From positions 1-24,914 of the IMG/VR virus record IMGVR_UViG_3300009285_005074: a stretch of DNA of 24,914 nucleotides; one strand, 5' to 3'. Each line of letters opens with the position of its first letter. Within the stretch, counting starts at the first letter, position 1. Origin of the DNA: a virus. Under the pieces are notes generated by a model. The model was given only the letters and a program-made list of their open reading frames with translations, made no database searches and was not told the origin of the DNA. Positions 306-24,459 of this stretch are shown here, in pieces. A program made the translations under genes and the position numbers.

Positions 306-354
306 GCCCAGCCCAGCAGGGGGGCGCCCTTGGGAGGCCCCTGCTGGGCTGGGC
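306..354. repeat. Hairpin H1, perfect 17-bp stem
   Basis: A 17-bp perfect inverted repeat (306-322 with 338-354) encloses a 15-nt loop containing GGCGCC. The arm reads GCCCAGCCCAGCAGGGG. No T-run follows on either strand, so it is not a typical intrinsic terminator. Confidence 0.85.
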
Positions 355-437
355 GTCGTCTCTGATCGTGGCGCAACACTGGTGATCTGTCTGTCTTAGT
401 GAAGCTGGCTATTCTGATCGCGGTCTTTCGGTCTAGA

Positions 438-478
438 GCGCTCCGCGCCGGTGAACGCAGTGAGCCGGCGCGGAGCGC
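438..478. repeat. Hairpin H2, 14-bp stem
   Basis: The arm GCGCTCCGCGCCGG (438-451) pairs perfectly with 465-478 around a 13-nt loop. The hairpin sits four bases upstream of the operator-like palindrome at 482-500. Confidence 0.85.
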
Positions 479-625: not shown

Positions 626-698
626 GGGCCGCGAGCGGGCAGCCCCCCGGAGCTTCGTCGTTTGCGTCGAAGCTCCGGGGGGCTGCCCGCTGCGGCCC
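626..698. repeat. Hairpin H3, about 31-bp stem
   Basis: This is the longest simple hairpin of the window. Bases 626-657 pair with 668-698 apart from one extra G on the left arm (around 633), leaving a 10-nt loop. The stem is GC-rich and includes GGGCAGCCCCCCGGAGCTTC. As RNA or extruded DNA it would be very stable. Confidence 0.85.
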
Positions 699-845: not shown

Positions 846-903
846 AAACCGCTCAGCTTGCTTGGCTGCGCTGGAAGCAGTCCAAGCTTGCTGAGCGGTT
901 TTC
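846..903. repeat. Nested hairpin H4
   Basis: An outer stem AAACCGCTCAGC (846-857) pairs with 890-901. A TT/TT internal loop follows (858-859 and 888-889), then an inner stem GCTTGG/CCAAGC (860-865, 882-887), a single-T bulge (881), CTGC/GCAG (866-869, 877-880) and a 7-nt loop. The right arm ends in TTTT, so it could act as a rightward terminator. The fold is shared in detail with H5 at 983-1030 although the outer stems are unrelated. Confidence 0.8.
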
Positions 904-929
904 GTCGAAGCTCTCGGTCTTAGTTCAAA

Positions 930-945
930 AGGGCAGCTTGCTGCC
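930..945. repeat. Simple palindrome H6
   Basis: GGGCAGC-TT-GCTGCCC is a 7-bp stem around TT. It has the outer-stem plus TT layout of H4 and H5 but no inner hairpin, and so looks like an empty version of the nested elements. Confidence 0.65.
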
Positions 946-982
946 CGTCGAGTCTAGTCAAGCGTTGGGGTCTCGACGTCGA

Positions 983-1030
983 GGGCAAGCTTGTTTGGCT
1001 GCGTCGTAAGCAGTCCAAACTTGCTTGCCC
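983..1030. repeat. Nested hairpin H5
   Basis: The outer stem GGGCAAGC (983-990) pairs with 1023-1030. Inside are a TT/TT internal loop, GTTTGG/CCAAAC (993-998, 1015-1020), a one-T bulge (1014), CTGC/GCAG (999-1002, 1010-1013) and a 7-nt loop. Compared with H4 the second inner pair has changed from C-G to T-A on both arms, a compensatory change that supports a conserved structure. Confidence 0.8.
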
Positions 1031-1181: not shown

Positions 1182-1218
1182 TTGACCAGTGCTTCGTCGT
1201 AGCTGTATACTCGGTTTA
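1182..1218 (+). promoter_or_regulatory. Promoter of the packaging/head genes, probably leaderless
   Basis: TTGACC (1182-1187) and TATACT (1206-1211), separated by 18 bp, match the sigma70 -35 and -10 consensus at five of six positions each. Transcription would be expected to begin about seven bases after the -10, at 1217-1219, which coincides with the ATG at 1218. No ribosome binding site is present, consistent with a leaderless message. Confidence 0.6.
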
Positions 1219-1820
1219 TGAGGAAGAATGTCCAGGGCAAGAGTCGTTTTCGGACCTATGTGGATGGTAGCAACGTCTACAAGAGGGCTGCGGTCGAGAA
1301 GTTGATGTGGGAGGCTCGGTTGGAGAACGCTAGTGACGACGAGATTGCGTCTCTGGTGGGTTTGCCGATTGCCGGTGTCCGTCGTTCTCTGACGGTGATG
1401 TATAATCGGGTTGCTACTGAGGGCGCTATTTTGGCTCGGACCTGGGCTGTCCGTCAGACGATGTTGCTTTGGACTGATGTGTATGAGGTGGCTGGGGCGC
1501 AGTGGAAGCTTACGAAGGATCCTCGTTACGCTGCTGTTATGCGTGGTGCTCTGGCTGACATCCGTAAGATTTGGGGTGTGGATGCTCCTCAGCGGGTCAT
1601 GCATGCTCACATTCATACTGGTGTGATCAACACTGAACTTGGGCGGTGCACGATTGAAGAACTCGAGCTCTTGCGGCGCCTCTGTGCCGGAAGTGACGGT
1701 GAATGTGCAATCGACGGGGAGTATTCCTCTGAAGTTGCCTCCGGAGGTGACGTTGGAGTCGGTCCGTTTGGCTCTGGCTTACCGGAGGTTTCAGGATTAC
1801 TGCCGGTTGGTGACTCCTGA
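1218..1820 (+). CDS. Putative small terminase subunit
   Basis: This 200-residue protein probably recognises the packaging site and hands DNA to the large terminase. Residues about 38-65 (DDEIASLVGLPIAGVRRSLT) look like a helix-turn-helix. The rest is helical, with an acidic, glycine-rich tail. The call rests mainly on position: it is the first gene of the rightward block, and the terminase large subunit starts inside its 3' end. The ATG at 1218 has no Shine-Dalgarno sequence, but a good promoter places the transcript start on this codon. The C-terminal 20-30 residues overlap the large-subunit frame and may be poorly conserved. It could instead be another HTH regulator, but small terminase is the best reading. 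Confidence 0.6.
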   Translation: MRKNVQGKSRFRTYVDGSNVYKRAAVEKLMWEARLENASDDEIASLVGLPIAGVRRSLTVMYNRVATEGAILARTWAVRQTMLLWTDVYEVAGAQWKLTKDPRYAAVMRGALADIRKIWGVDAPQRVMHAHIHTGVINTELGRCTIEELELLRRLCAGSDGECAIDGEYSSEVASGGDVGVGPFGSGLPEVSGLLPVGDS

Positions 1821-3228
1821 GTGGGTAGACGCGCCTCATCTGGACTATCTGTGCAGCCGCGCTGAGGCTGTTTGTGGTGGTAAGCTTCGTCGTCTGATCA
1901 TCAACATTCCTCCTGGCTATGCGAAGTCGTGGATATTCTCCCGGTGTTTGCCTTCTTGGTTCCTGATGCGATTCCCTCGTCGTGAGTTCATGCTTCTGAG
2001 TTACGGTGATGACCTGGCCACTGAGCATTCGAGCGCTGCTCGGTCGATGTTCGGTGAGTATGCTCCTCTGATGACTGGTTCGGGTATGGCTAAGGACTCG
2101 AAGAGTGTGTCCCGCTGGATGGTGGACATGGGCGATGGGAAGCGTGGCGGTGGTATGACTTCCTGTGGGATCGGTTCTTCGGTCACTGGCCGGCGGGCTG
2201 ATCTTATCGTGATCGATGATCCCTACAAGAACTGGGATGAGGCGAACTCTCAGGTTGTTCGTGAGCGGGTGTGGGATTCGTACCGGTCTGTGATCCGGTC
2301 GCGGTTGCGTCCGAACGGGTGCATTATCGTGATTCAGACGCGGTGGCACAAGGATGATCTGACCGGGCGTCTTCTGACGCATGCTGGTGGGATGAAGTGG
2401 GAACTGTGCAAACTGCCTGCTCGGGCCGTTGCCGGTGATATGCTCGGTCGGGTCCCTGGTGAAGCTTTGTGGCCTGGGATGTATGATGATATGGAGTTGC
2501 ACGAGATCGAGGGTGATATTGGTCCTATCTTCTGGGCTTGCCAGTTTCAGCAGCAGCCGGAGGAGCCTGAAGGTCGGCTGTTCAAGAAGGCGTGGTTCCG
2601 GTATTGGTATGCTGAGGGCGGTGATTACTGTCTTGAGACTGACTCTGGTCTGCTGCGTTACAGCAAGGGCGATTGCTACGTCGTCCAGACTGTGGACCCG
2701 AATCTCACTGATGCTTCGTCGAGTGATTACTTTTGTCAGGCGGCCTGGGCTCTGTGTCCGGGCGGTGAGATACTTCTTTTGGCTGTCCAGAGGGAGCGGA
2801 TCGAGACTACAGAGCACGTCGACGAGGTGGGTGCGTTTTATGACCGGCACGGCGCCGCTTGTATCTTGCTGTCGAAGCGGTCTAGTGGGATGAACCTCTT
2901 CCAGGAGTTGGAGGACCTGGGATACTCTTTAGAGGAGATTGTCGAGGATGTGTCAAAGCTTTCACGTAGTGTTGTTGTCATGCGGAAGTATCGCCGTGGT
3001 GAGGTTTACCATCTTCGGGACGCTGTCTGGATTGGTGATGTCGAGGGTGAACTGAAGGAGTTTCCTGGCGGGAAGAATGATGACTTCGTTGACAATGCTT
3101 CCGCCGTGGGCATATACTCTTCACAGATTGGCGGCGGCATCTCTGACATGGCGGTGACTGGGGGTTCGACTCGTGTGGGAATGGGATTTGGGCTTCGCGA
3201 GAATGAGTTGGGGTCGTTCCTCGGTTAG
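1753..3228 (+). CDS. terL: Terminase large subunit (packaging ATPase/nuclease)
   Basis: This is the motor that translocates and cuts phage DNA at the portal. With the start chosen here it has 491 residues. The ATPase shows a Walker A variant IPPGYAKS (about 52-59), Walker B DLIVIDDP (about 150-157) and the coupling motif IQTRWH (about 194-199). The C-terminal RNase H-like nuclease shows VQTVDPNLTDASSSDY and, near the end, GGKNDDFVDN with the last metal-binding Asp. The frame is open from a TTG at 1639, but TTG 1753 is the first start preceded by a clear ribosome binding site (GGAGGTG), so it overlaps the small subunit by 68 bp; GTG 1747 or 1684 are alternatives. Family assignment is firm, the exact start is not. 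Confidence 0.93.
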   Translation: MESVRLALAYRRFQDYCRLVTPEWVDAPHLDYLCSRAEAVCGGKLRRLIINIPPGYAKSWIFSRCLPSWFLMRFPRREFMLLSYGDDLATEHSSAARSMFGEYAPLMTGSGMAKDSKSVSRWMVDMGDGKRGGGMTSCGIGSSVTGRRADLIVIDDPYKNWDEANSQVVRERVWDSYRSVIRSRLRPNGCIIVIQTRWHKDDLTGRLLTHAGGMKWELCKLPARAVAGDMLGRVPGEALWPGMYDDMELHEIEGDIGPIFWACQFQQQPEEPEGRLFKKAWFRYWYAEGGDYCLETDSGLLRYSKGDCYVVQTVDPNLTDASSSDYFCQAAWALCPGGEILLLAVQRERIETTEHVDEVGAFYDRHGAACILLSKRSSGMNLFQELEDLGYSLEEIVEDVSKLSRSVVVMRKYRRGEVYHLRDAVWIGDVEGELKEFPGGKNDDFVDNASAVGIYSSQIGGGISDMAVTGGSTRVGMGFGLRENELGSFLG

Positions 3229-4486
3229 GACGGAGGATGTTGGCCCTGATGTCGGTATCGCTGGGTCTTTTCAGGGTTATGTGAACCCTGATGATCTGGT
3301 CGGGGCTAAGGGCTTGGAAGTCTACGAGAAGATGTGCCACAACGCTCAGGTGGCCGCGTGTCTGTCGATCAAGCGTTCGAGTGTTCTTGCCCGTGGTTGG
3401 GATATCTCGTCGAAGAAGTCTGACGGCGCCCTGGGCAAGGAGATCTCGGAGTTTTGCACTGACGTGTTCGAGTGGATGGAGGGAACTGTTTTCGAGTTCC
3501 TGGAGGGTGTCTGTGACGCCCTGGCTAAGGGTTACTCTGTTCAGTCGATGGTGTGGGATGTCATCGAACGCGGGAAGTGGGCTGGGAAGATGGCTCCCCG
3601 GTATATCAGCCCGAAGGATCCTGAGGATTGGCAGTTTGAGGTAGACGAGTACAAGCGTGTTCTGCGGTTGATTCACGTTCCGTCCGACGCGAGGTATCCT
3701 CGGTCGGATTTCGTTTTGTACGTCCACCGCGGCCGGTATGGGAACCCCTACGGGGAGTCTGATCTCCGGAACGCTTATCGTAACTGGTGGTCTGTGGACT
3801 TCTTAGAGCGGTTCTGGAATATCTACATGGAGAAGTTCGGGTCGCCGACCGTTAAGGGCAGTTACAGGCGGGGTACAACGGCGGCGGCTAAGCAGCTTTT
3901 CCTAACTGCTCTGAGTTCCGTCCAGTCGAAGTCGGCTGTGGTGTTTCCTGACGATATGAAGGTTGAGCTCTTGGAGACGATCCGGCAGGGTGAAGCCGGG
4001 TTCCGTCTCGCCGTGGAGTATCACAACAAGCAGATCGCGAAGGCGATTCTGAATCAGACTCTCATCACTGACGATGGGTCCGGGGTGGGGTCTTTCGCCC
4101 TGGCGAAGGTGCATCTGGATGTCTTGAGGATGGGTCTTCGTGGTCTGAAGCAAGGCCTGGAGGAGTCTGTTGTTCGTGAGCAGGTTCTTCGTCGTCTTGT
4201 CGAGGTGAACTATGGATATGATGCTCCCGTGCCTCTATTTTCTCTGGGTCCTCTGGAGGATCGCGAGATTGAGCCTCTTTCGAGGGCGGCGAAGAACATT
4301 GTGGACTCGCAGATTGTGGCGGCTGATGATCCGTGGTTGCGGGAGTTCCTGGGTATCGTAGGCGCCGGCAAGGCTCCGGACCGGGTTGTCGGTACTCCTG
4401 GGTCGGCGTCCGGGGCGGTTCCGTCCGTGAGTCGGGCTCGGGTGGACGGTGATACGAATGACGGCGTTGTGAGAGTGGGGGCATAA
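3203..4486 (+). CDS. Portal protein, Mu gp29-like (DUF935)
   Basis: This protein forms the dodecameric ring at the capsid vertex through which DNA enters and leaves. The sequence has the DUF935 (phage Mu gp29) layout: an N-terminal block with YEKMCHNAQVAACLSIKRSSVL, a middle block with YVHRGRYGNPYGESDLRNAY and WNIYMEKFGSPTVKGSY, and the helical EYHNKQIAKAILNQTL region. At 427 residues it is somewhat shorter than Mu gp29, having a short low-complexity Gly/Ser/Val tail. The ATG at 3203 was chosen over the GTG at 3173; both overlap the terminase end. The Mu F-like head gene that usually follows the portal is absent here. Confidence 0.88.
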   Translation: MSWGRSSVRTEDVGPDVGIAGSFQGYVNPDDLVGAKGLEVYEKMCHNAQVAACLSIKRSSVLARGWDISSKKSDGALGKEISEFCTDVFEWMEGTVFEFLEGVCDALAKGYSVQSMVWDVIERGKWAGKMAPRYISPKDPEDWQFEVDEYKRVLRLIHVPSDARYPRSDFVLYVHRGRYGNPYGESDLRNAYRNWWSVDFLERFWNIYMEKFGSPTVKGSYRRGTTAAAKQLFLTALSSVQSKSAVVFPDDMKVELLETIRQGEAGFRLAVEYHNKQIAKAILNQTLITDDGSGVGSFALAKVHLDVLRMGLRGLKQGLEESVVREQVLRRLVEVNYGYDAPVPLFSLGPLEDREIEPLSRAAKNIVDSQIVAADDPWLREFLGIVGAGKAPDRVVGTPGSASGAVPSVSRARVDGDTNDGVVRVGA

Positions 4487-4941
4487 TGGCTACATCGATC
4501 ACGCACGAGGATGTAAAGCCGAGAGTTGGGGTCCCGAGTGCTACCACGACGTATGACACTGAGATGGATACTGTCTGCACGGCCGTGGCGGCCGGTGTCG
4601 ATGCGGCTGTCGATGCGGCTTACCTGACCTCGGCGGCGGCTCTGGTTAAGCTGGCCGCAATCGATATCGCGACCGGGACTCTGATTGTTGGGATTTTCAA
4701 TCGCCCCGGTTATGCTGAGCAGATGATAGCCGCGGGCGTCACGCTTGGCGGTTTGGATAAAGACGGGGCGAAGGAGCTTATCAAGCAGGGATGGGCCACT
4801 CTGGCCCCATACCGTCCGGACAAGGCAACCGCTACAGCAGCGGCCGAGGCGGCTAAGACTCAGGTGGCCGATTCCGCGGAATGCGACTTGTCCAGTGATG
4901 ATATGATCTTCGGTAGTGACTCGGCGGAGTACGACTATTGA
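4486..4941 (+). CDS. Putative head-tail connector/adaptor
   Basis: This 151-residue protein starts with an ATG overlapping the portal stop (TAATG), implying coupled translation. It has an early SITHEDVKPRVG segment, helices rich in Ala and Val (about 30-65), then AAIDIATGTLIVGIFNRPGY and LIKQGWATLAPY, and an acidic tail. This plan resembles small all-helical connector proteins (gp6-like, or Mu gp36/DUF1320-like) that dock under the portal. The assignment is based on pattern and on position just after the portal, not on a search. If right, the particle has at least a neck to which a tail could attach. Confidence 0.45.
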   Translation: MATSITHEDVKPRVGVPSATTTYDTEMDTVCTAVAAGVDAAVDAAYLTSAAALVKLAAIDIATGTLIVGIFNRPGYAEQMIAAGVTLGGLDKDGAKELIKQGWATLAPYRPDKATATAAAEAAKTQVADSAECDLSSDDMIFGSDSAEYDY

Positions 4942-5267
4942 GCCATGCTACTGATCGTTTCGACGCTGGCGTTGATCGCCTGGGTGAGTCGATCACCTGG
5001 ACGAAGTTGAATGGCTCCGCTGGGTCTTTCGCTCACAACGGCATCGTTCGGCAAGCGGATGGCGGTACTTTGAACGTTTATCTGGATGCTATTGAACAGG
5101 CTGCTTTGACGCGTCCGGCTCTGGCTGTGATCTGTAAGAGTGGGACTTCGGTGATCGTGAACGACACTTTCACTCGTGACTCTGTGAACTACATCTGTGT
5201 AAAGGTCGGGATTCATCGTCTGGCTAATGAGATCATCGGTCGCACGGCGATTATGAATACGGTTTGA
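4938..5267 (+). CDS. Putative head-completion or stopper protein
   Basis: This 109-residue protein has its TTG start overlapping the upstream stop codon (ATTGA). It is predicted to be mostly beta: SITWTKLNGSAGSFAHNGIV, then an ALAVICKSGTSVIVNDTF segment and the ending RLANEIIGRTAIM. Small beta-barrel proteins at this position commonly close the portal channel or join head and tail (SPP1 gp16-like, HK97 head-closure type). Function is inferred from size, fold impression and neighbours. There is no enzyme motif. Confidence 0.4.
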   Translation: MSHATDRFDAGVDRLGESITWTKLNGSAGSFAHNGIVRQADGGTLNVYLDAIEQAALTRPALAVICKSGTSVIVNDTFTRDSVNYICVKVGIHRLANEIIGRTAIMNTV

Positions 5268-5274
5268 GGTGGCA

Positions 5275-5775
5275 ATGGTCGATCAGGGTGTCCCTCATTG
5301 GATAGTGGCGGACTGTGCAAACAGGAGTTTGCGGAAGTTGAAGCCGTCGTTCGTGATTCTTCATCACACAGGTGGGCCGGGATCGGGGTCCCTGGAGTGG
5401 CTCCGTACTTCTCGGTCGAATGTGTCCGCTGATTTTCTGATCATGGCCAGCGGTCAGATATACAAGCTCAATCCTCAGCTTTCGGAGTTCTACACGTGGC
5501 ATGCCGGGGTGTCTCGGTATGGCAAGTGCCTGGACCTGAACCCGTCGTCGTTTGGCATCGAGTTGGAGCACGTCCCTGGCGAAGAGTGGCGGGCTGGGCA
5601 GATCGATGCGTGTGTAGCGGTTGTGGCGTTCCTTGTGTGGAAGTTCTCGATCCCGGTAATGAATGTTCTGGGTCATAAGCAGGTGGCCTGGCCGAGGGGT
5701 CGTAAGACTGACCCGGAGGGGTTCCCCTGGGCGGAGTTTCGTCTTGCGTTGAAATCTCGTTTGGGGGTGAAGTAG
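5275..5775 (+). CDS. N-acetylmuramoyl-L-alanine amidase (endolysin)
   Basis: This zinc amidase of the Amidase_2/PGRP family cleaves the amide bond between muramic acid and the stem peptide. The 166-residue protein is essentially one catalytic domain. FVILHHTGG (about 27-35) carries the first zinc His, TWHAG the second conserved His (about 76), FGIELE the conserved Glu region, VLGHKQVAWP the next zinc His (about 134), and GRKTDPEGF the Lys and Asp ligands (about 144-146). There is no signal peptide, so it needs a holin, and the next gene fits that role. ATG 5275 follows GAGGTGG; a GTG at 5269 lies inside that site. Its place within the head genes is unusual for an endolysin, so a virion-associated role is possible. 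Confidence 0.88.
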   Translation: MVDQGVPHWIVADCANRSLRKLKPSFVILHHTGGPGSGSLEWLRTSRSNVSADFLIMASGQIYKLNPQLSEFYTWHAGVSRYGKCLDLNPSSFGIELEHVPGEEWRAGQIDACVAVVAFLVWKFSIPVMNVLGHKQVAWPRGRKTDPEGFPWAEFRLALKSRLGVK

Positions 5776-6077
5776 TGGCAGGTGGACTTGGTATCGAGGG
5801 TGCTGTGATTGCGGGTGTAGGCGGCTTTGTCGGAATGGCCGGTGCGCTGGGGTATGGGTTCAAGCTGATGGTCGACATTCTCGGCAAGCAGCTTACGGTT
5901 CAGAATACTGTGATTTCTGGGCTGGAGAGTGGTATCCAGGGCAAGCTGGATGATCATATCACTTCGTGCGCTGGGTGTCGGTCCGCGATTGATGCGGTTG
6001 GCAAGTCTGCTAAGGATAGTGCGGATCGTGTGGTGAAGTCGGTAAGCGATAGAGATCGGAGGTCTGAGGGTGCCTGA
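5775..6077 (+). CDS. Holin-like small membrane protein
   Basis: This 100-residue protein has one hydrophobic Gly/Ala-rich segment (about 7-29, GIEGAVIAGVGGFVGMAGAL) near the N-terminus, followed by an amphipathic region, a CAGC motif (about 65-68) and a charged tail ending in RDRRSEG. The GTG start overlaps the last base of the amidase stop codon (TAGTG), so the two are probably translated together. A single-span protein next to an amidase suggests a holin or a lysis accessory protein. A structural membrane protein is an alternative. Confidence 0.5.
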   Translation: MAGGLGIEGAVIAGVGGFVGMAGALGYGFKLMVDILGKQLTVQNTVISGLESGIQGKLDDHITSCAGCRSAIDAVGKSAKDSADRVVKSVSDRDRRSEGA

Positions 6078-6987
6078 AGTAGTGGTTCGTGAAGCTAAGC
6101 TCTTCGAGTGCGGCGTTTACCGTGATCGGGAGATATCGTTCACTGAGGCTGATCTCGACGCCATTGTTGCCGGGTTCAAGTCAGACGGTGAGCGTGTTCA
6201 TGTTCGTGTTCAGCATACCCGGACACCGTTCGATGGTATGATGGGTCACGTCGAGAGCGTGTGGCGTGCGGGCAAGGATCTGATGGGTCGTCTTGTGTTC
6301 CCTGAAGTGTTTTGGAAGTTCCTTGAGGCTATGGGAACGAAGAAGCTCAGTGTTGGTTTCGACTATCGACAGCGCAGATTGCGAGAAGTTTCTATAGTGG
6401 ACAACCCTCGCATCTTGACAGCCCGGATATTCGGTGATAGTATCGGTGTCGATGGTCTGTTGGTTTTCGAGGATGGTTTCGGGTCTGACGAAGAAGGGGG
6501 AGGTAGTAGGATGCCTGAAGTGTTGACGCCGGAGTTCCGGCAACTGTTGGAAAGGGAGCGGGAAGCTGGCCGTGTTGAGGGTATGGCCACTGCTGAGACG
6601 CAGTTCAGCGAGCGGATCGGTCCTGTGGCTCAGGAGAATGCGGCTTTGAAGCGCAAGATGGCTTCGGAGCGGGCTTCTGGTATCATGCTGGGCTGGAAGG
6701 CTGAGGGTCGGCTGATGCCGGCTGCTGAGAAGTACGCTGAGGCTCTGCTCGTGGACGGCGCCGCGGAAGTGACGTTCTCCGACGGCGGGCATATGAGCGC
6801 TGCTGAGGCGTTCGTTCAGTTCATGACTCACCAGGGACCGGTTCTCACGACTGTCCGTGGGTCAGGGACTGCGGCTGAGCGGCCTGGCGAGGTGTCGGCG
6901 ACTGAGAAGCGTGTTTACGACGCGCTTGGGGTGACTGCTGAGGAAGTCTGGGAAGCTGAGTCTGCGATTGCGGCTCCGACCGCGTAA
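6070..6987 (+). CDS. Prohead protease with C-terminal scaffold (Mu gpI-like)
   Basis: This 305-residue assembly protease cleaves scaffold and itself inside the prohead. The N-terminal half shows the U35/S78 pattern: VRVQHTRTPFDGMMGHVESV with the catalytic His (about 49), KKLSVGFDY with the catalytic Ser (about 94) and REVSIVDNPRILTARI, the typical strand after the active site. Residues from about 148 onward are charged and coiled-coil-like, as expected of scaffold. The GTG start overlaps the upstream gene by 8 bp. An in-frame internal start at 6511 with a strong ribosome binding site would make the scaffold alone, as Z does within I in phage Mu. Confidence 0.8.
   Translation: MPEVVVREAKLFECGVYRDREISFTEADLDAIVAGFKSDGERVHVRVQHTRTPFDGMMGHVESVWRAGKDLMGRLVFPEVFWKFLEAMGTKKLSVGFDYRQRRLREVSIVDNPRILTARIFGDSIGVDGLLVFEDGFGSDEEGGGSRMPEVLTPEFRQLLEREREAGRVEGMATAETQFSERIGPVAQENAALKRKMASERASGIMLGWKAEGRLMPAAEKYAEALLVDGAAEVTFSDGGHMSAAEAFVQFMTHQGPVLTTVRGSGTAAERPGEVSATEKRVYDALGVTAEEVWEAESAIAAPTA
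6511..6987 (+). CDS. Nested scaffold protein (Mu Z-like, internal start)
   Basis: ATG 6511 is in frame with the protease gene and is preceded by GGGGGAGGTAG, one of the best ribosome binding sites in the block. The 158-residue product keeps the coiled-coil part (FRQLLEREREAGRVEG, ENAALKRKMASERASG) and lacks the protease. It begins MPEVLT, echoing the MPEVVV start of the full protein. Free scaffold made from an internal start is established for Mu I/Z and lambda C/Nu3. Its existence here is inferred from the start signal. Confidence 0.6.
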   Translation: MPEVLTPEFRQLLEREREAGRVEGMATAETQFSERIGPVAQENAALKRKMASERASGIMLGWKAEGRLMPAAEKYAEALLVDGAAEVTFSDGGHMSAAEAFVQFMTHQGPVLTTVRGSGTAAERPGEVSATEKRVYDALGVTAEEVWEAESAIAAPTA

Positions 6988-7040
6988 TCGCGATCGGCGC
7001 GGTGTAGCGGCATTTTGTGAGAGGTTTGGGAGGGGTTGCG
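6983..7040 (+). promoter_or_regulatory. Leader element upstream of decoration gene
   Basis: The intergenic sequence runs CGTAATCGCG, CGGCGCG, TGTAGC, TTTTGTG and a purine-rich ribosome binding site (GGGAGGGG). The same words in the same order lie before the major capsid gene at 7582-7651. Shared leaders before the two most abundant virion proteins could set mRNA stability or translation. Confidence 0.4.
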
Positions 7041-7586
7041 ATGGATGGAGGAATGCTTGGTTGGGTGGTAATGCTGGTCGCCCTGGTATGGGCTATGGGA
7101 GCGTACGGCGCTTCGGCGGCGGCGTTCGACATTGAGAGGATGGAGGGCCAGAAGATCAGCTATAAGATGGGCGCCGAGAAGATCTACAAGGGCACCATGT
7201 GTATGATCAACGCGGCTGGTTACTGTGTCCAGATATCGGATACGGCGACGGGCGATAGTTTTGCTGGTGTGGCTGCGGAAACCGTCGATAACAGTGCGGG
7301 CAGCGCCGGTGATAAGCGAATCGACGTTTGGCGGACCGGCGTCTTCAGGTTCAAGCATGCTGGTGCGGCGATCACGGACATGGGTCTTATGGCCTATGCG
7401 TCTCTTGGTGTCGCGGATGCCGGCCAGACTGTGAAGTCCGCGACGGAGGGAACGCATGCAATGATGGTCGGCAAGATCGTGGGTATGAGCGCGGATTCTT
7501 CGGCGACTCGCTGCGATGTCCTCATCGACGGTTGCACGGCTCTGGCGTCCGCTGAGACTGCCGTGATTGGTGGTTGGACGACGTAA
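7041..7586 (+). CDS. Capsid decoration protein, DUF2190-like, with hydrophobic N-terminus
   Basis: From about residue 34 the sequence resembles the DUF2190 capsid decoration/stabilisation family: MEGQKISYKMGAEKIYKGTM, DSFAGVAAETVDN, IDVWRTGVFRFKHAGAAITDMG and VGKIVGMSADSSATRCDVLIDG. Its place directly before the capsid gene fits. Unexpectedly the first 28 residues read like a signal peptide or membrane anchor (MLGWVVMLVALVWAMGAYGA, then ASAAAF). ATG 7041 is well placed after GGGAGGGG; the GTG at 7017 would lengthen it by eight residues, and the internal ATG at 7140 has no usable ribosome binding site. The hydrophobic start is therefore probably real. Confidence 0.7.
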   Translation: MDGGMLGWVVMLVALVWAMGAYGASAAAFDIERMEGQKISYKMGAEKIYKGTMCMINAAGYCVQISDTATGDSFAGVAAETVDNSAGSAGDKRIDVWRTGVFRFKHAGAAITDMGLMAYASLGVADAGQTVKSATEGTHAMMVGKIVGMSADSSATRCDVLIDGCTALASAETAVIGGWTT

Positions 7587-7651
7587 TCGCGCTACCCGGT
7601 TTCGCCGGCGCGTTCATGTAGCTGTTTTGTGTTGGGGAGGAGGGTAACCTA
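7582..7651 (+). promoter_or_regulatory. Leader element upstream of major capsid gene
   Basis: The element repeats the words seen at 6983-7040 (CGTAATCGCG, CGGCGCG, TGTAGC, TTTTGTG) and then has GGGGAGGAGGG, a strong ribosome binding site eight bases from the GTG start at 7652. Confidence 0.4.
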
Positions 7652-8608
7652 GTGGGCGGAAATCTGTATACTGCGGGGTCAGGGATGGGCGATTTGCCTG
7701 TCGGTCCCCTGACGAAGGGTCTCAAGGCGCTTTTCATGAAAGCGTACAAGGAGTATTCCGAGAAGAGTGTCGTGCTGCGAGTCTGCACGATCACCGACTC
7801 GACGTCGGACTCTGAGGATTACTCCTGGCTCGGGGCGGTTCCGAAGATCCGCGAGTTCCTGGCGGAACGCCGGGCGAAGTCGCTTGCGAACTTCAATTAC
7901 AACCTGAAGAACCAAACCTGGGAGAACACGATCGGGGTCAAGCGCTCCGATCTGGAGGATAACAAGCTTGGCATGCTTCGGACACGCATTCGCCAGCTTG
8001 CCCAGGAGGCGGTTCGCTACAAGGAAGAGAAGGTCATGTCGTTCCTGACCTCGGCTCTCGGTTCTGACGCGGCGCCGTATCTGTGCTACGACGGCACGGG
8101 CCTTATCGACACCGCTCACACCGCGACTTCTGAGGAGGGTGGGGCGACTCAGTCGAACAGGGCCGGGACGGCGCTGGCCATCGCTACTCTGTGGACGGCG
8201 ATCGGGGCTATGCGTGGTTTCAAGGATGACACCGGGCGCATCCTGGGGATGGTGCCGGACACTCTGCTTGTGGAGCCGTGTCTCGAGCAGACCGCATTCG
8301 AGCTCTTGGAACCGATCAGTGCTTCTGCGCAGTCCGCTGCTCTGAAGCACTTGAACATCGAGCCGGTTGTGAGCTCCTATCTCTATTCCACGGCAACGGC
8401 GGCGAACGGGAATTGGTTCTTGCTCGACTCCCAGAGCGAGGTCAAGGGCGTCATCTTGCAGGAACGGACTTCGGTGGAGTTTGGTTCCCTTGAGAAGGAC
8501 TCGGATAGCGGTTTCTTGCGTGACGAGTTCCTTTATGGCACTAGGGCCCGGTGGGCAGTGGGTGCGGGCTTCTGGCCGGCGATCTACGGCAATGCCGGCG
8601 CTGGCTAG
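7652..8608 (+). CDS. Major capsid protein, Mu gpT-like
   Basis: This is the shell subunit, with 318 residues against about 305 in Mu gpT. The N-terminal half shows the family signature: YSWLGAVPKIREFLAERRAK, then LKNQTWENTIGVKRSDLEDN (the gpT phrase that precedes the helical spine) and LAQEAVRYKEEKVMSFLTSALG. The C-terminal half ends with RARWAVGAGFWPAIYGNAG. It probably adopts the HK97 fold. The GTG start follows GGGGAGGAGGG. Together with the DUF935 portal and the I/Z-like protease it shows that the head module is of Mu type throughout. A terminator-like hairpin follows 41 bp after the stop. Confidence 0.88.
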   Translation: MGGNLYTAGSGMGDLPVGPLTKGLKALFMKAYKEYSEKSVVLRVCTITDSTSDSEDYSWLGAVPKIREFLAERRAKSLANFNYNLKNQTWENTIGVKRSDLEDNKLGMLRTRIRQLAQEAVRYKEEKVMSFLTSALGSDAAPYLCYDGTGLIDTAHTATSEEGGATQSNRAGTALAIATLWTAIGAMRGFKDDTGRILGMVPDTLLVEPCLEQTAFELLEPISASAQSAALKHLNIEPVVSSYLYSTATAANGNWFLLDSQSEVKGVILQERTSVEFGSLEKDSDSGFLRDEFLYGTRARWAVGAGFWPAIYGNAGAG

Positions 8609-8649
8609 GGTTAGCAGAATGGCGAAAGCGTCGTTCGGGTGGGGCTGGT

Positions 8650-8683
8650 GGCCCGGGCCGGTATTCCCGGTCCGGGCCTCTTT
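8650..8683 (+). terminator. Terminator/attenuator after the capsid gene
   Basis: GGCCCGGGCCGG (8650-8661) pairs with CCGGTCCGGGCC (8667-8678), 12 bp with one G-T pair, around the loop TATTC, followed by TCTTTC. It probably reduces transcription downstream of the highly expressed capsid gene while letting some through to the surface genes. Confidence 0.65.
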
Positions 8684-8699
8684 CATGTGAGGAGGGACT

Positions 8700-9332
8700 A
8701 TGGAAAAGGGTCAGTTGCTATGGAGTGGGTCGGTTGCTTGGACGGTGAACGAAGACGCGGTAAAGACTCTCGATGTGCCGTTGCTTCCGATCGGAGACGA
8801 GGAACAATTTCTGCTGTCGGTTCGGAACGGCTCCTCCGTTGTCGATCTGACGGTCGACGTTGGGTTTCTCTCTGAGGTCTATCCGTCTTCTACGACGCCC
8901 AGGGTTGAGACGGCTTGTACGACTGTCGACGTTGGGGATAAGGTCACTTGTGTTGGGCATGGCTTGGTTGTTGGCGATTGTATTGTCTTCGGGGATACTG
9001 AGGGCGGCGTCACGGTGGGTACGAAGTACTACGTGATCGCGGTTGCTGACGCGGACAATTTCCAGTTCGCGACCGCGCGCGGCGCCGCGGCGTTCACCGT
9101 GGATGCGACAGCCGGAGCGAATACGTTTACGGTGACTGAGGAGTTCTTCGTGTTGACCTCTATCTCCGTTCCGAAGTTCGCGGCGGGAACGACTGTGGCG
9201 GCGGTTGCCGGTCTGGTGTGCCGGATCATATCGGGATGGCCGTATGGTCCGGATGGCGGTCGGTTGTCGTTCATGAAGTCCGCGGCGACGGCCGCGATTT
9301 TCGGCGCGTATGCTGAGATTCGTCGGTTGTGA
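8700..9332 (+). CDS. Beta-rich structural protein, function unknown
   Basis: This 210-residue protein has an ATG preceded by GAGGAGG. Residues 1-60 look like a small beta domain. The middle holds a module starting at GDKVTCVGHGLVVGDCIVFG and continuing through GGVTVGTKYYVIAVADADNF, a beta pattern common in phage neck, tail and fibre proteins. The C-terminus (YGPDGGRLSFMKSAATAAIFG) is conserved-looking but unassigned. Position right after the capsid gene suggests a virion protein, perhaps a neck or spike base. No tail-tube or tape-measure feature is seen in it. Confidence 0.55.
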   Translation: MEKGQLLWSGSVAWTVNEDAVKTLDVPLLPIGDEEQFLLSVRNGSSVVDLTVDVGFLSEVYPSSTTPRVETACTTVDVGDKVTCVGHGLVVGDCIVFGDTEGGVTVGTKYYVIAVADADNFQFATARGAAAFTVDATAGANTFTVTEEFFVLTSISVPKFAAGTTVAAVAGLVCRIISGWPYGPDGGRLSFMKSAATAAIFGAYAEIRRL

Positions 9333-9340
9333 GGCATGGT

Positions 9341-10597
9341 ATGGAGGTGATCCCTGCTGTTGGTCGTGCCGTGCGGTCAGCTCGTGTGCACGCTGGCAGT
9401 AGCTATGGTCGCACGTTGTGTAACCTTGCTCAGCAGCATTACAGCGTCGATGTGGATGTCGACTGTGGTACGGCTGGGAAGTGGTTCGCGGCGGGCGGGG
9501 GAACGATCGGTTGGGACACGTCCAACTATTATGCGGGGTCTACTCAATCGGTCACGGTTACTGGTGGACCGACTCCGATCTTGCAGTATCGGACTCCTGC
9601 GGCGCCCCTGAACCTGGCTGGCAAGTATTTGCTCGTTCGTCTTCAGAGGAACGACGCGGTGCCGGACGCGACCTATGGCAGCTATACGGTGAAGTTCTAC
9701 AGTGAGTCGAACTACTCGAAGGTGTCTTCGGTATTCACTCTGTGGGGCGTTGGCCGTCACTACAATGCTTGTGATAGCTGTCAGGGTTGGTTTGAGTTCT
9801 GTATGCCTATGGCTGATGTGGGCCTGGGAACGCTGACTGACTTCACGGCAATCACGATGATCACTGTTCAGTCTAACCTGGCGGCGGGTGGTGAGGCTGA
9901 TTTCGGCTTGCATCGATTACAGGTCTTGTCGGCGGTTGGGTCGTATTACTGCATACGCATAGATTGGGTATCTCCGTTGAGGGTAGACGCGGTCGCGGCG
10001 TACGCTAAAGCGGCTGGTGTCAGGTTGACTATCGGGGCATGGATGGCGTCTCTTGACGGTGGAAGCGGTTTGTCGACGTGGGATGTTCGGCGGCTTATCG
10101 ATAGTGGGCATGAAATCGTGGTCTATGGTAATGCTCCTGTAAGTCGGACGTGGGACGATTGGACTCCGGCGCAGAAGTTGGAGTATATCCCTGCTCGGTT
10201 GAAGGATATGTGCAGGCAAGTGGGGATGGATTGGAACGGGGTGTTTTTTGTTCCGGGCGGGAACGGTGTGTCGGTGTGGGATCGGGTTAACCTGGTTGGT
10301 CCGGGGATTCTGTCGTGTATCAGTGGGACTAGTACGACGGTTGTGGGTCTGTATATGCTGCAGGTTCCTGGGTTTCGTCAATTGGATTGGACTGGGTTCA
10401 TAAACGGCGGGGCGGATGGTTTGATCCCGAGTTGGCTTCCTGGGAAGATAACTGAGTGTGAGTCGAACGGTGGATGCGTGGTTCTGGGCGCTCACATATC
10501 GGACGACGATCATGTAGCGAGCCTGGAGGCTGCGATAGATGCGCTGGCGGCTTCGGCGTTGGCTTGCAGGACGTTCGGGGATTTTGTGAGTCAGTGA
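9341..10597 (+). CDS. Spike-like protein: beta domain plus degenerate polysaccharide-deacetylase domain
   Basis: This protein has 418 residues. The N-terminal half (to about 200) reads as a beta-sandwich with carbohydrate-binding character (GKWFAAGGGTIGWDTSNYYA, YGSYTVKFYSESNYSK). From about 205 it follows the NodB/polysaccharide deacetylase order: YYCIRIDWVSPLRVDAVAAY at the first strand, RLTIGAWMASLDG, then RRLIDSGHEIVVYGNAP and a late GVFFVPGGNGVSVWDRVN. Canonical enzymes have an Asp-Asp pair at the first strand and a His-x3-His metal site. Here one Asp and one His (of GHEI) remain, so it may bind glycans without cutting them. A receptor-binding spike is likely. ATG 9341 follows TGAGG; GTG 9329 overlaps the previous stop. 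Confidence 0.6.
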   Translation: MEVIPAVGRAVRSARVHAGSSYGRTLCNLAQQHYSVDVDVDCGTAGKWFAAGGGTIGWDTSNYYAGSTQSVTVTGGPTPILQYRTPAAPLNLAGKYLLVRLQRNDAVPDATYGSYTVKFYSESNYSKVSSVFTLWGVGRHYNACDSCQGWFEFCMPMADVGLGTLTDFTAITMITVQSNLAAGGEADFGLHRLQVLSAVGSYYCIRIDWVSPLRVDAVAAYAKAAGVRLTIGAWMASLDGGSGLSTWDVRRLIDSGHEIVVYGNAPVSRTWDDWTPAQKLEYIPARLKDMCRQVGMDWNGVFFVPGGNGVSVWDRVNLVGPGILSCISGTSTTVVGLYMLQVPGFRQLDWTGFINGGADGLIPSWLPGKITECESNGGCVVLGAHISDDDHVASLEAAIDALAASALACRTFGDFVSQ

Positions 10598-10606
10598 GGT
10601 GTGGCC

Positions 10607-11356
10607 GTGGAGAAGAATGCTGTCGGTCGTGGCAGGGAATGGGATTCGGTTGTCCAGCCGGTGGGGCTTGGCCGTGGGTGCGTTCTGCGGGTCGATATGG
10701 AGTCTGCGGGGTCGGCTCGCGTTCTCGATGGTGTGGGTGTGTCCCATGGGACGGTTACGGGTGCTGTGCGGACCGTGGAGAGGTCGGGGCTTTCGCGTTT
10801 CTTCGACGGCACGGATGATCTGATCGACTGCGGTAAGGCCAGTGTTCTGGGTCTTTTGAACACTCTGACGATTGAGGCGTGGGTCAGGCCTAATATTGCG
10901 TATGCGAGCTCTGATGCCACCGTTCGGTATCGGGCTATTGTCTGCAAGGCTTCGGGCGGCGCCGCTTCCGGCGTGTCTTATCTCATGGACTGGTACGGGG
11001 ATCAGACTGGCCGGACTCTGCGGCTTACCGTGAGTGACGGGGTGGCGCTCAAGAGTCATACGTCGACGGGGTGTGATATGGCTCAGTCTTGGACTCATGT
11101 GGTTGGGACTGTGGAGTACCCGGGCCAGATGAAGTTGTACAAGAACGGGGCTCTGTTGTCCGCTATCGCGAGCACGAAGGGTTGCCAGTTGGTTGACACT
11201 GAAGTCCATATCGGTCGAAATTTCAGGTTGGGGAATACGACGTATACTTGGTCCGGTTGGATCGGGGATGTAGGGTTGTATTCGGTGGCGTTGAGCGCGG
11301 GGGAGATCCGGGATCGGTTCCGTCGTGGCGCTCGGAAGTATGGGGTGGCGTGGTAG
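10607..11356 (+). CDS. LamG/concanavalin-like surface protein
   Basis: This 249-residue protein has a single LamG-type beta-sandwich. The markers are SRFFDGTDDLIDCGKASVLG, LTIEAWVRPNIA, a central WTHVVGTVEYPGQMKLYKNG and the late WSGWIGDVGLYSVALSAGEI followed by RDRFRRGARKYG. Such domains bind glycans or form the head-binding part of fibres. As the last gene before the terminator, and after the deacetylase-like protein, it is probably exposed on the particle and helps host recognition. GTG 10607 is preceded by TGAGGT at good spacing; GTG 10601 is two residues longer. Confidence 0.7.
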   Translation: MEKNAVGRGREWDSVVQPVGLGRGCVLRVDMESAGSARVLDGVGVSHGTVTGAVRTVERSGLSRFFDGTDDLIDCGKASVLGLLNTLTIEAWVRPNIAYASSDATVRYRAIVCKASGGAASGVSYLMDWYGDQTGRTLRLTVSDGVALKSHTSTGCDMAQSWTHVVGTVEYPGQMKLYKNGALLSAIASTKGCQLVDTEVHIGRNFRLGNTTYTWSGWIGDVGLYSVALSAGEIRDRFRRGARKYGVAW

Positions 11357-15625: not shown

Positions 15626-15837
15626 CTGGGTTTGGGTGCTGCGTTGTGGGCTTCGCGCAGTTCTCTCTCAGCGCGGTTTATTGCGTCGACGGCTGTGTGG
15701 AAGCCTAGTTCTGTGTGTCGGTAGTGTGTTTGAGCGTCGGCATACCTTAGTGATGCTGTGAGCAGGTCTTTCTCGGCTTTTGTGGTGGCTGCTTGTGCAA
15801 GCTCTATTCGGGATTGTGCTACTTGTTCAGGTGTCAT
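15622..15837 (-). CDS. Small coiled-coil protein
   Basis: This 71-residue protein is almost wholly helical (SRIELAQAATTKAEKDLLTA, then LGFHTAVDAINRAERELREA). ATG 15837 overlaps the primase stop and follows AAAGGAGA. An upstream in-frame extension would lie inside the primase gene and is rejected. Function unknown; its coupling to the primase suggests a replication accessory. Confidence 0.6.
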   Translation of the reverse strand: MTPEQVAQSRIELAQAATTKAEKDLLTASLRYADAQTHYRHTELGFHTAVDAINRAERELREAHNAAPKPR

Positions 15838-17477
15838 TGGGATGTCTCCTTTGGCAGGATCCACGCGCTGGAGGATCCCGAGTTGAGTGGAAGTCGTATG
15901 GCCTTGGCTCCTATGGCACGGAGCGCAAGGCCGAGTGAACGGGGCGCGACTCTCTCCTGATAGTGTATGGCTATCCAGTATCTCAGAGAGGCGGCGGTGA
16001 TCATTGTTTGGCCGTCTTCGTCTGTCCATGGTGCGGCGGCTTGCAGACCTTCGGTCATGTTGGCGGCGCTGGGGGTGTGCCGAAGGAACGCTGACAGCCA
16101 GTCCCGCATCTGGCCGCGGAGCGTGGTCTCGTAGCCCGCCGTGTCGTGGTCGACGTAGGAGAGTGCGGCCCGGATGATGTTATCCCACCTGGTGGCGCTC
16201 TTCTTTGGCGGCAGGGTGTGGCTGTGGGCCGCTATGATGTTGCGGCATTTGGTTTGGCTGGTCAAGTGGTCTATGCAGGAGAAGTGGATGGAGTCGCCGT
16301 CGAGTAGCCGTAGTTCGTACGCGGGTTCCTCGGCGTCCAGTCGAGTAAGCCCGATGGCCTGGATGCCGAGCTCGGATGATATGAGGTTCCATGCGGCCTG
16401 GGGGGATTCGAACTTCGGGGTGTTCTCCGGTGGTTTGTTTCCCGTGGCCGTTGTGGTACCGGTCGGGGATGTAGCTGGAACGGGTCCGGCGTTCGCTTCG
16501 AATGCGGCCTTGGATACCGTTGCGTCGTAGTAGGAGTCTGCTTTCTGGGGTATGGAGTGTCGGGTGCGAAGCTGGCGAAGCACGGTCTGTGTCTCGGGCT
16601 GGGTAAAGCCGGCGCGAACACAGTACTGGGCCATGCTCATATCGTAGGCGCTGGGTGATTGGTCCCGCAGGGATGGGTTATCGTGGTTCCACGTGGCCGC
16701 GATTGTGGGGTCGACGGCAATGAGGCAATTGATCTTCTCGGCCAGGTCTCCGGGTAGTGGCTGTGTTTCGGAGTGGGCTACAGCGCTACGATCGGTGAGA
16801 CGTAGCGGTTTTGTTGCTGCTGTTGTGGCGTCTCGCGGCGGTCCTGCCGCGGCGCGGAGATCTAGAAGAGTGTAACGGCAATCCGGGACGTGGAGAATTA
16901 CTTCGATCGGCCTGATGTCCTGTGAGAGCTTGCAGTTCTTTGTTCCCGGAAGCCGCATGACTCGCGATAGGTCCCAGACTGAGTCGGCATCATAGCCGGC
17001 CTGCGTGCACACGAGCCGCCATTGGGCGCTGAAGTCGCTTAGCAGGGTTGCTATGGCTATCCGGTTGCTGTTGTCGATCGGCGTCCAGGCGTCGAGGTAG
17101 TACCATAACTGTAGGCCGTGGCCTGAGTTGACTATGGTCGATGGGCTGACGTCCGGGTATGCTTGGGCGACAAGGTCGAGGGCTTCGTCGGCGTCGACGG
17201 GCAGTGCCGCTTTCTGGTGGGCAGGGCTTCGGAGGTCAACGTCGAGCCACAAAGCTCCTATGCCTGAGACCAGGGCGTTGCCGCCCCGCTTGGTGGCGCC
17301 CAGCTTTGCGGCCTCGGGCCTGGCACCGCAGCCGAAGTAGGTGTCTCGGTGGAAAGCCTGCGGATCTATGTCGATTGGGGACGCGAACCACGAGCTGAGT
17401 TTGGTGGCAGATTGCCAGACGAGTATGAGGTCGGAGTCCGGCATGCCGGTGAATATGTCCCTGAGTAGATCGGTCAC
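15834..17477 (-). CDS. DNA primase of the archaeo-eukaryotic (RepB-like) type
   Basis: The enzyme makes primers for replication and may also polymerise DNA. Of 547 residues the N-terminal domain holds the AEP motifs: ALWLDVDL with the metal-binding Asp pair (about 79 and 81), NSGHGLQLWYYL with the nucleotide-binding His (about 120) and WDLSRVMRLPGTKN, the third motif (about 168-181). A linker rich in Thr and Pro (about 330-360) separates a C-terminal domain (AAWNLISSELGIQAIGLTRL, then LLDGDSIHFSCIDHLTSQTK) of a kind often seen in phage primases. No helicase Walker motif is present, so unwinding must come from another protein, such as the SF1 or SNF2-like helicases of the same operon. GTG start after GGAGG. 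Confidence 0.8.
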   Translation of the reverse strand: MTDLLRDIFTGMPDSDLILVWQSATKLSSWFASPIDIDPQAFHRDTYFGCGARPEAAKLGATKRGGNALVSGIGALWLDVDLRSPAHQKAALPVDADEALDLVAQAYPDVSPSTIVNSGHGLQLWYYLDAWTPIDNSNRIAIATLLSDFSAQWRLVCTQAGYDADSVWDLSRVMRLPGTKNCKLSQDIRPIEVILHVPDCRYTLLDLRAAAGPPRDATTAATKPLRLTDRSAVAHSETQPLPGDLAEKINCLIAVDPTIAATWNHDNPSLRDQSPSAYDMSMAQYCVRAGFTQPETQTVLRQLRTRHSIPQKADSYYDATVSKAAFEANAGPVPATSPTGTTTATGNKPPENTPKFESPQAAWNLISSELGIQAIGLTRLDAEEPAYELRLLDGDSIHFSCIDHLTSQTKCRNIIAAHSHTLPPKKSATRWDNIIRAALSYVDHDTAGYETTLRGQMRDWLSAFLRHTPSAANMTEGLQAAAPWTDEDGQTMITAASLRYWIAIHYQERVAPRSLGLALRAIGAKAIRLPLNSGSSSAWILPKETSQ

Positions 17478-23241: not shown

Positions 23242-23535
23242 ATGCCAGAATGCTCGAAGTGCGGGAGATGCTGTAGAGTGATTGTCGTCTTCTATCAGTG
23301 GACAGAGGAACTCGAGGAGTTTTTTCAAGCACGGGGACTCAAGTATTCCAGTGATCGCCAGACATTGGTTGTTGAGATACCGCATACCTGCGATATGCTT
23401 AGGGGAAACAGGTGTTCGATTCACAACGGAGCGAAGCCTGCCATCTGCCTCCGCTTTCCAGCAGGCTATACCTACAAGCTCCCCGGGTGCACGCTCGCAA
23501 TCACGGATAGTCAGCGGAGCGGCGTCAAAACCTGA
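23242..23535 (+). CDS. YkgJ-type cysteine-cluster protein
   Basis: This 97-residue protein is of the YkgJ (UPF0153) zinc/iron-chelating family. Markers: CSKCGRCCRV at residues 4-13, HTCDMLRGNRCSIHNGAKPA (about 48-67), then ICLRFPAGY and PGCTLA. Eight cysteines fit one or two metal sites. Family members are of unknown biochemical function; some act near oxidases or modify proteins. ATG 23242 follows an excellent AGGAGG. It is the only gene on this strand outside the structural block and stands next to the control region, which suggests separate, perhaps early or lysogenic, expression. Its own role in phage is unclear. Confidence 0.8.
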   Translation: MPECSKCGRCCRVIVVFYQWTEELEEFFQARGLKYSSDRQTLVVEIPHTCDMLRGNRCSIHNGAKPAICLRFPAGYTYKLPGCTLAITDSQRSGVKT

Positions 23536-23644: not shown

Positions 23645-23908
23645 CTACCTTCCCAGTATCTCTTCTTTGTTCAGATAGGCATGGATGTTCATCAACTCAG
23701 CATCCGTCAGCAGGATCACAAGCCCACAGGACAGCACGATCGCGCTCTCATACTGAGGCATCGTCGGACCAGAGAGCACGCGAACTAGCTTTCGGACCTT
23801 GCCCGCAGGCAAGTGGTTCAGTTCCACAGTGATGAACGGACCTTCAGCATAGACGGAGAGAATCTGGCCCTCTGTGGGCCGTTCGACGAGAAGAGTCTTC
23901 TTGGCCAT
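23645..23908 (-). CDS. Small hypothetical protein
   Basis: This 87-residue protein begins MAKKTLLVERPTEGQILSVY, has beta-like segments (GPFITVELNHLPAGKVRKLV and SAIVLSCGLVILLTDAELMN) and ends with a helix (IHAYLNKEEILGR). ATG 23908 follows AAGGAGACTCCACCAAG. The upstream in-frame extension runs into the repeat region and was rejected. It could be a small regulator or replication protein tied to the adjacent iteron-like region, but no domain is recognised. Confidence 0.6.
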   Translation of the reverse strand: MAKKTLLVERPTEGQILSVYAEGPFITVELNHLPAGKVRKLVRVLSGPTMPQYESAIVLSCGLVILLTDAELMNIHAYLNKEEILGR

Positions 23909-23960
23909 CTTGGTGGAGTCTCCTTGGGAGTGTGTGCTATGGACACCGAAGCCAGGTATC

Positions 23961-24271
23961 CACGCTCCGACATTATAACAGGGATTGCAATAACGCGCAA
24001 TCGTTATTCTGAGATTTGGCAGAATGACGGAGCGTAACTGCGACATTATTCTGGAGTAATTGCCAATATTTCTTTAGTACATGGGGTCAAAATCTCATTG
24101 TGTGAGGTGAAGATAACGTCGCACTAGGCGACATTATAGAATAGTTATAATAACGACGGTGTGTGCGACATTCAAGCCGACACCGGAATAACGATTGTTG
24201 TAGCGGCAATATGCCGGAGAAGAGGAAAATCACGCTCCGACATTATTCCAACTAAATCCACAATGAGATTT
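23961..24271. other. Iteron-like region, candidate replication origin
   Basis: This AT-richer stretch has five copies of CGACATT(AT) (23968, 24041, 24129, 24166 and 24238). The two outer ones are part of an exact 16-bp direct repeat CACGCTCCGACATTAT (23961-23976 and 24231-24246). AATAACG occurs at 23989, 24149 and 24187, and inverted at 24002, forming a small hairpin with the first. A 13-bp inverted pair AAATCTCATTGTG lies at 24090-24102 and 24259-24271. Repeats of this type mark plasmid and phage origins or multi-site operators. No Rep gene sits alongside. Confidence 0.5.
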
Positions 24272-24333
24272 CTCGCATGTATATAAAGGCGTTTTTCAAA
24301 AGAGTCGGTTGACCTGTGCATGCTGGGTTGCTT

Positions 24334-24366
24334 GGCGGCTGGGGAGCAAAGCGACTTCCAGCCGCC
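24334..24366. repeat. Hairpin, 9-bp stem
   Basis: GGCGGCTGG (24334-24342) pairs with CCAGCCGCC (24358-24366) around a 15-nt loop. It is followed within four bases by the next hairpin. Confidence 0.75.
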
Positions 24367-24370
24367 TCCG

Positions 24371-24416
24371 GCTCCGCGTCTTGCTGGGACGAAGTCCGTT
24401 CAGCAAGACGCGGAGC
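24371..24416. repeat. Nested hairpin, 16-bp outer stem
   Basis: GCTCCGCGTCTTGCTG (24371-24386) pairs with 24401-24416. A GGAC-GAA-GTCC hairpin sits inside it, with an unpaired GTT on the 3' side (24398-24400). Confidence 0.8.
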
Positions 24417-24426
24417 TTCCAAGTTC

Positions 24427-24459
24427 ATCGACGCGGCGGCTGTGCCGCATCGCGTCGAT
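24427..24459. repeat. Nested hairpin, 9-bp outer stem
   Basis: ATCGACGCG (24427-24435) pairs with 24451-24459. An inner GCGGC-TGT-GCCGC carries an unpaired AT on the 3' side (24449-24450). The plan of outer stem, inner stem and 3'-side bulge is the same as in the preceding hairpin. Confidence 0.75.

Follow-up and report, generated by a model that had tools for sequence, protein, structure and literature searches.

What are the two nested hairpins, H4 and H5, that lie in non-coding DNA about 190–370 nt upstream of the gene in the terminase small subunit (TerS) position of this small phage genome? We analyzed the whole stretch of DNA, a 24,914-nt virus record classed as linear (hereafter the window). 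The reading that we prefer, with a probability of about 0.35, is that H4 and H5 may be duplicated DNA hairpins of the phage replication-origin region, resembling the single-strand-initiation (ssi) sites of plasmids, a function that we infer by analogy.

The plus-strand genes of the window are the TerS-position gene and those for TerL, portal, head protease, major head protein, and amidase, and the minus-strand genes encode a UvrD-like helicase, a primase, an SNF2-like helicase, and a nuclease-like protein. Head and packaging genes were clear in 1218–11356, but the only sign of a tail among the late genes tested there was a weak tail-fibre match (8700–9329). Tail genes may be lacking from this genome of ~25 kb, or too diverged to be recognised. 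The hairpins and their surroundings are listed below.

Positions 846–901, plus strand: nested hairpin H4 with an outer stem of 12 bp (RNA and DNA folding, pairing check).
Positions 855–892, plus strand: H4 copy of a 38-nt core, with the 8-nt direct repeat AGCTTGCT at its ends.
Positions 931–946, plus strand: H6, the simple palindrome GGGCAGC-TT-GCTGCCC (sequence, pairing check).
Positions 983–1030, plus strand: nested hairpin H5 with an outer stem of 8 bp (RNA and DNA folding, pairing check).
Positions 988–1025, plus strand: H5 copy of the core, identical to the H4 copy at 33 of 38 positions.
Positions 1218–1820, plus strand: gene just upstream of TerL, taken by its position as the terminase small subunit.

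H4 and H5 had the coordinates and the fold given in a preliminary description of this DNA, and the fold was the same for RNA and DNA; H6, placed at 930–945 in that description, lies at 931–946. From the outside in, both hairpins consist of an outer stem, a TT/TT internal loop, 6 bp, 4 bp (CTGC/GCAG), and a 7-nt loop, with a single bulged T on the 3' side of the inner stem. They have the same orientation and are 137 nt apart (133 nt for their cores), and all 40 of their base pairs are Watson-Crick. As RNA, H4 had a minimum free energy of −40.4 kcal/mol (z −7.8) and H5 of −31.8 kcal/mol (z −7.6), and none of 200 shuffles was equally stable in either case. A model of H4 and H5 scored 61 bits for the sense and 21–22 bits for the antisense reading.

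The two hairpins had been described as sharing a 28-nt inner unit within unrelated outer stems. A common unit is present in both, but its size is 38 nt, and the outer stems share three identical TT-adjacent pairs (AGC/GCT). The five differences between the cores comprise one compensated base pair, which is the C-G to T-A change already noticed in the inner arms, and three bases of the 7-nt loop; the unpaired differences (n = 3) are thus all inside the loop. When 280–969 was compared with 970–1217, the best 38-mer identity was 33, while the maximum in 200 block shuffles was 25, and the pattern TTGGCTGC-N7-GCAGTCCAA with up to three mismatches occurred twice in the window against 0.05 expected. 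The resemblance of the two cores is therefore not chance, and the proposal that the inner unit was copied is borne out as a duplication within the phage's own genome.

The inner hairpin of H4 is flanked by the 8-nt repeat at 855–862 and 885–892, whose counterparts in H5 are AGCTTGTT and AACTTGCT. The preliminary description had pointed to TT flanks, which are present, but merely as the centre of this longer repeat (AGCTTGCT in H4). It had also raised the idea of a tiny mobile hairpin of ~22–28 nt that inserts into TT-centred palindromes and duplicates their centre. Consistent with this idea, H4 minus the inner unit and one repeat is a perfect palindrome, and the outer stem of H5 is similar to that of the presumed empty palindrome H6 (GGGCAAGC vs GGGC-AGC). 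A random outer stem of 5 bp equalled the latter similarity in 884 of 20,000 cases, however, and H6 as the 'empty' form of the H5 palindrome is a possible but weak interpretation. The flanking repeat itself belongs to a motif that recurs in the region, also at 284 and 1077 without the inserted unit, which speaks against insertion; GCTTGC was found six times on the plus strand of 1–1,217 vs eight times in the 22.9 kb that separate both parts of the non-coding block. Because GCTTGC also occurs without the unit, there is no need to take the repeat for a target duplication.

Another point against mobility is that there are two copies only, close together in a single genome, and no convincing third copy. 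A pattern scan of IMG/VR gave 30 matching stretches, none of them with nested stems; a second exact pattern had no match there, and a further pattern had one (L051), which was AT-rich and had no inner stem of the H4/H5 type. Searches with blastn returned three short sub-significant matches from phages and no match from plasmids. The covariance-model search that had been suggested as a check found no third copy across 17 sources. In 298 bacterial genomes, the matches (0/149 in one phylum and 2/149 in another) included no convincing copy, which shows little given that the phyla were arbitrary. The genome matches L053 and L054, both inside long ORFs, were dropped as extra copies. A descriptor scan of 430,304 nt of other loci yielded seven matches, all with only four outer pairs and none in the relative G001 (IMGVR_UViG_3300037487_001646 from IMG/VR, 23,581 nt, TerL 69% identical), and one extra match within the window at 16403, likewise with only four outer pairs. 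G001 was the only relative with this region and carries different hairpins there; the H4/H5 model gave nothing significant in it (best 13.2 bits, E 0.15, hairpin 8213–8258). TT targeting and mobility thus remained unsupported, with no other convincing copy in the relative or the collections searched. Since there are no further copies and the TT belongs to a recurrent motif, we rejected a mobile TT-targeting element as the best reading and consider it highly improbable. It is also very unlikely, as a joint claim, that a 22-nt stem-loop with AGCTTGCT flanks is a self-copying cassette spreading between TT-centred origin palindromes by replication template switching, with origin hairpins exchanging their apical modules and stems being rewritten freely.

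H4 and H5 belong to a non-coding block of ~1.85 kb (24,120–24,914 plus 1–1,217), which makes up 8% of the window and is flanked by AT-rich direct repeats on the left and a sigma70-like promoter at TerS on the right. Seven of the 18 perfect stems of at least 8 bp in the window fall within the block, as do all four stems of at least 14 bp in the window-wide scan. Folding z-scores reached −10.1 and −5.1 in the block, compared to 0.11 ± 1.02 in coding windows. The other features of the block and its flanks are as follows.

Positions 306–354, plus strand: H1, perfect 17-bp stem (stem scan).
Positions 420–436, plus strand: short block GC(G/C)GTCTTTCGGTCTAG, common to the G001 region (sequence comparison).
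Positions 438–478, plus strand: H2, perfect 14-bp stem (stem scan).
Positions 634–691, plus strand: H3, perfect 24-bp stem (stem scan).
Positions 1182–1211, plus strand: sigma70-like promoter TTGACC-18-TATACT immediately ahead of the TerS start, with a similar site in G001 (promoter scan, whose matches are consensus matches only).
Positions 23961–24248, unstranded: AT-rich repeat region with CGACATT five times and the heptamer AATAACG/CGTTATT (repeat counts).
Positions 24280–24287, plus strand: TATATAAA, a promoter-like or unwinding element (TATATA; comparison with G001 by eye).
Positions 24334–24366, plus strand: hairpin with a 9-bp outer stem (stem scan).
Positions 24371–24416, plus strand: hairpin with a 16-bp outer stem (stem scan).
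Positions 24427–24459, plus strand: hairpin with a 9-bp outer and a 5-bp inner stem and a 2-nt 3' bulge (stem scan, folding).

Inner stems with bulges on the 3' side are present in the hairpins at 24371 and 24427 as well. CGAAG occurs five times on the plus strand and not on the minus strand of 24120–24914, often as C-GAA-G mini-hairpins. Beside the repeat region, a CxxCxxCC zinc/iron-binding-type protein (23242–23535) and an 86-aa protein without a family (23645–23905) are conserved in G001. A run of 16 G at positions 5–20, close to where the contig begins, may reflect an error of assembly or sequencing where the ends of the circular genome meet. The TATACT or TATGAT hexamer ends 6–9 nt upstream of the TerS start codon in the window and G001, and the terminase mRNA may therefore be leaderless or nearly so.

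The comparison with G001 bears on how the block evolves. A portal query found no relatives, helicase and TerL alignments found only G001, the record L033, and distant ones, and a search with a leader motif found G001 only; L033 (TerL 82%) starts inside the TerS gene and has no leader. G001 is colinear with the window apart from a circular shift. Its repeats, block, and TerS are contiguous, and thus the two ends of the window very probably join, judging from this gene and repeat order. Between the TATATA element and the TerS start lie 1852 nt in the window with its ends joined, and 3023 − 1126 (insertion sequence, IS) = 1897 nt in G001. AATAACG/CGTTATT is concentrated in both genomes, with four of five copies within 23940–24300 in the window and six of eight within 5560–6080 in G001. 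By eye, G001 also has the TATATA element and a promoter-like site at TerS (TTGCCA-17-TATGAT), and the two leaders have short blocks in common, such as GTCTTTCGGTCTAG. Folding z-scores in the G001 block reached −8.4 and −6.2.

G001 has a hairpin pair of its own, with two 23-bp stems (8209–8262 and 8347–8401) that are 138 nt apart, much like H4 and H5, and have the same loop; the best-scoring position of the H4/H5 model in G001 is the first of the two. Without gaps, 11 of the 23 stem pairs differ; with gaps, three pairs are different and two are indels, and all are Watson-Crick. Shuffled arms aligned equally well in 6 of 20,000 cases. The window and G001 each have a paralogous hairpin pair in which the loop or apex is alike and the stems have changed on both sides together. 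Over 12 hairpins, 204 of 208 pairs were Watson-Crick; 9 of the 12 had been selected in the first place as perfect Watson-Crick stems, which softens any argument from the absence of G-U pairs. The G001 block also contains a 1126-nt IS3-family insertion (6430–7555) flanked on either side by GAG, which is probably a target duplication of 3 bp, and eight plasmid transposases among the matches listed were 51–57% identical to its transposase.

Such stems could be by-products, that is, palindromes that template switching has made and perfected in a spacer free of constraint, with H4 and H5 as a functionless local duplication. PMC8794818 describes template switching as creating and repairing perfect stems, with multi-base compensated changes, and as yielding changed stems without G-U intermediates. 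The hypervariable sequence and the IS3-family insertion in the G001 block also fit an unconstrained spacer. However, G001 keeps the block length, the flanking repeats, the promoter-like sites, and the short blocks, the stems of at least 14 bp are confined to the block, and the three unpaired core differences are all in the 7-nt loop. We regard this by-product reading as rather unlikely.

If the hairpins have a function, they might act as RNA. A transcript starting at the TATATAAA element would then span the block, either as a long leader or as a separate non-coding RNA, and H4 and H5 would be protein-binding hairpins with a conserved apical motif, serving antitermination, RNA chaperoning, or packaging. 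The retention of stems despite altered sequence and the stability of H4 and H5 as RNA are consistent with this, as are the U-U mismatches and the bulged U that the plus strand would present. Short motifs also prefer the plus strand: GCTTG occurs nine times on the plus and three times on the minus strand of 1–1217, and GTCTAG twice vs none there, three times vs none in the whole window block, and five times vs once in G001 (7560–9050). In contrast, no match to Rfam 15 reached the gathering score in the window, H4 and H5 have no G-U pair among their 40, and the promoter-like site right before TerS in both genomes puts the hairpins upstream of the transcript that starts there. Permissive matches to known RNA families were mostly rods of the pre-miRNA type, far below the cut-off, and were dismissed. 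A scan for intrinsic terminators (stem plus T run), whose limits could miss nested stems, found none at H4 or H5, which are followed by T-CG and GAGC, respectively, with no T run. A structured RNA is thus a possible but doubtful explanation; if correct, phages would have a new structured RNA in which the apical motif is duplicated.

The hairpins and repeats might otherwise form a cos- or pac-type packaging region recognised by the terminase. In both genomes, they are immediately upstream of the terminase genes, and short directional motifs recur among them. However, a cos or pac site needs less than about 1.85 kb of hairpins, and the contig ends differ (position 1 in the window, inside the SNF2-like gene in G001), so that no common cut is visible. 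We consider a packaging site improbable.

We return to the replication-origin reading, which we adopted because repeats stand beside hairpins and shape is kept without sequence, as in the plasmids RSF1010 and pRN1. It is supported by the concentration of stems and the strong folding in the block, by the same layout in G001, with a different hairpin pair of its own, and by stems that stay Watson-Crick while their sequences change. Counting against it, H4 and H5 have a single orientation, the assignment of the primase is weak, the apical unit of H4 and H5 was not seen in G001, the block adjoins the terminase, where packaging sites also lie, and the plus-strand bias of GCTTG and GTCTAG fits RNA as well. 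The GC skew has its minimum at the block; we dropped it as independent evidence for an origin since the coding direction switches at the same place. Between 12,000 and 22,500, the skew was positive through most of the minus-coded half of the window, and near zero or negative in G001.

The origin reading assigns the use of the hairpins to the following gene.

Positions 15834–17477, minus strand: putative RepB/prim-pol-like primase, proposed user of the hairpins (PHROG and plasmid primase matches).

This protein matched PHROG 2478 'DNA polymerase/primase' (E 3.3e-13), as did its G001 counterpart (E 1.4e-12). Among plasmid proteins, it matched a P4-family primase (E 1e-16) and one with a RepB domain (E 4e-3), while its match to Pfam RepB_primase (E 0.13) was below the cut-off. 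There was no convincing match by sequence in the PDB, and the predicted structure was unusable (pLDDT 39). The motifs DVD/DID, SGHG, and SRVMRLPGT were recognised by eye in the primases of the window and G001.

During replication, the block would become single-stranded and H4 and H5 would fold. The primase could then use them as single-strand-initiation sites, as RepB' of RSF1010 does with ssiA and ssiB, and the apical part (bulge, CTGC/GCAG, and loop) may be the feature that it recognises. Template switching would rewrite both arms of a stem together, and the inner unit might be copied from one palindrome to another by way of the AGCTTGCT repeats. Should the block be an origin, hairpin shape has been kept while sequence turned over almost completely between relatives with 69% identical TerL, prim-pol-type primases of a small phage would be tied to start sites that are read by structure, and the maintenance of palindromes by template switching could be observed in a natural setting. 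Open-access literature searches found no paper on phage non-coding regions that are rich in hairpins and have terminase and origin, non-coding RNA ahead of the terminase in phages, nested palindromes with template switching, or hairpins inserted into loops in phages; this absence is weak evidence of novelty, as the phrases searched were narrow.

Several known systems resemble this locus in part. Mitochondrial double-hairpin and other palindromic elements, as portrayed in parts of PMC7218506, are very short, multi-copy, found in non-coding DNA, and thought to be mobile. H4 and H5 are likewise very short palindromic units with copies in non-coding DNA; the mitochondrial elements have many copies and sites that are optional between relatives, whereas here there are two copies and no optional site was seen. 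The hairpins that PMC8794818 attributes to template switching share with ours perfect stems, multi-base compensated change, and no G-U intermediates. That proposal concerns RNA genes, while here the only hint of the process comes from two pairs of paralogous hairpins in the non-coding block of a phage.

For pRN1, sections of PMC4234260 report that a stem-loop is required for replication although its sequence is not conserved between plasmids, and that one stem change that blocked replication worked only once a second change restored symmetry; some phages are said there to resemble this stem-loop origin. Unlike pRN1, which has one 100-nt stem-loop beside its replication gene, the window has many hairpins, which lie close to the terminase and at a distance from the primase gene, and a prim-pol/SF3 fusion was not found in it. 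Like pRN1, it has large stem-loops whose shape is kept without sequence, and its presumed replication protein may be of the prim-pol type. In RSF1010, according to portions of PMC4434180 and PMC4234260, the RepB' primase recognises the hairpins ssiA and ssiB near iterons. RSF1010 has one ssi hairpin per strand, whereas H4 and H5 have the same orientation on one strand and are nested and longer, and the putative link to the phage primase is weak by sequence. Iteron-type repeats, as candidate initiator sites, are present in 23940–24300 (CGACATT five times, AATAACG/CGTTATT four times). As in RSF1010, a short hairpin pair lies near iteron-type repeats, in a replicon that may encode a RepB/prim-pol-like primase.
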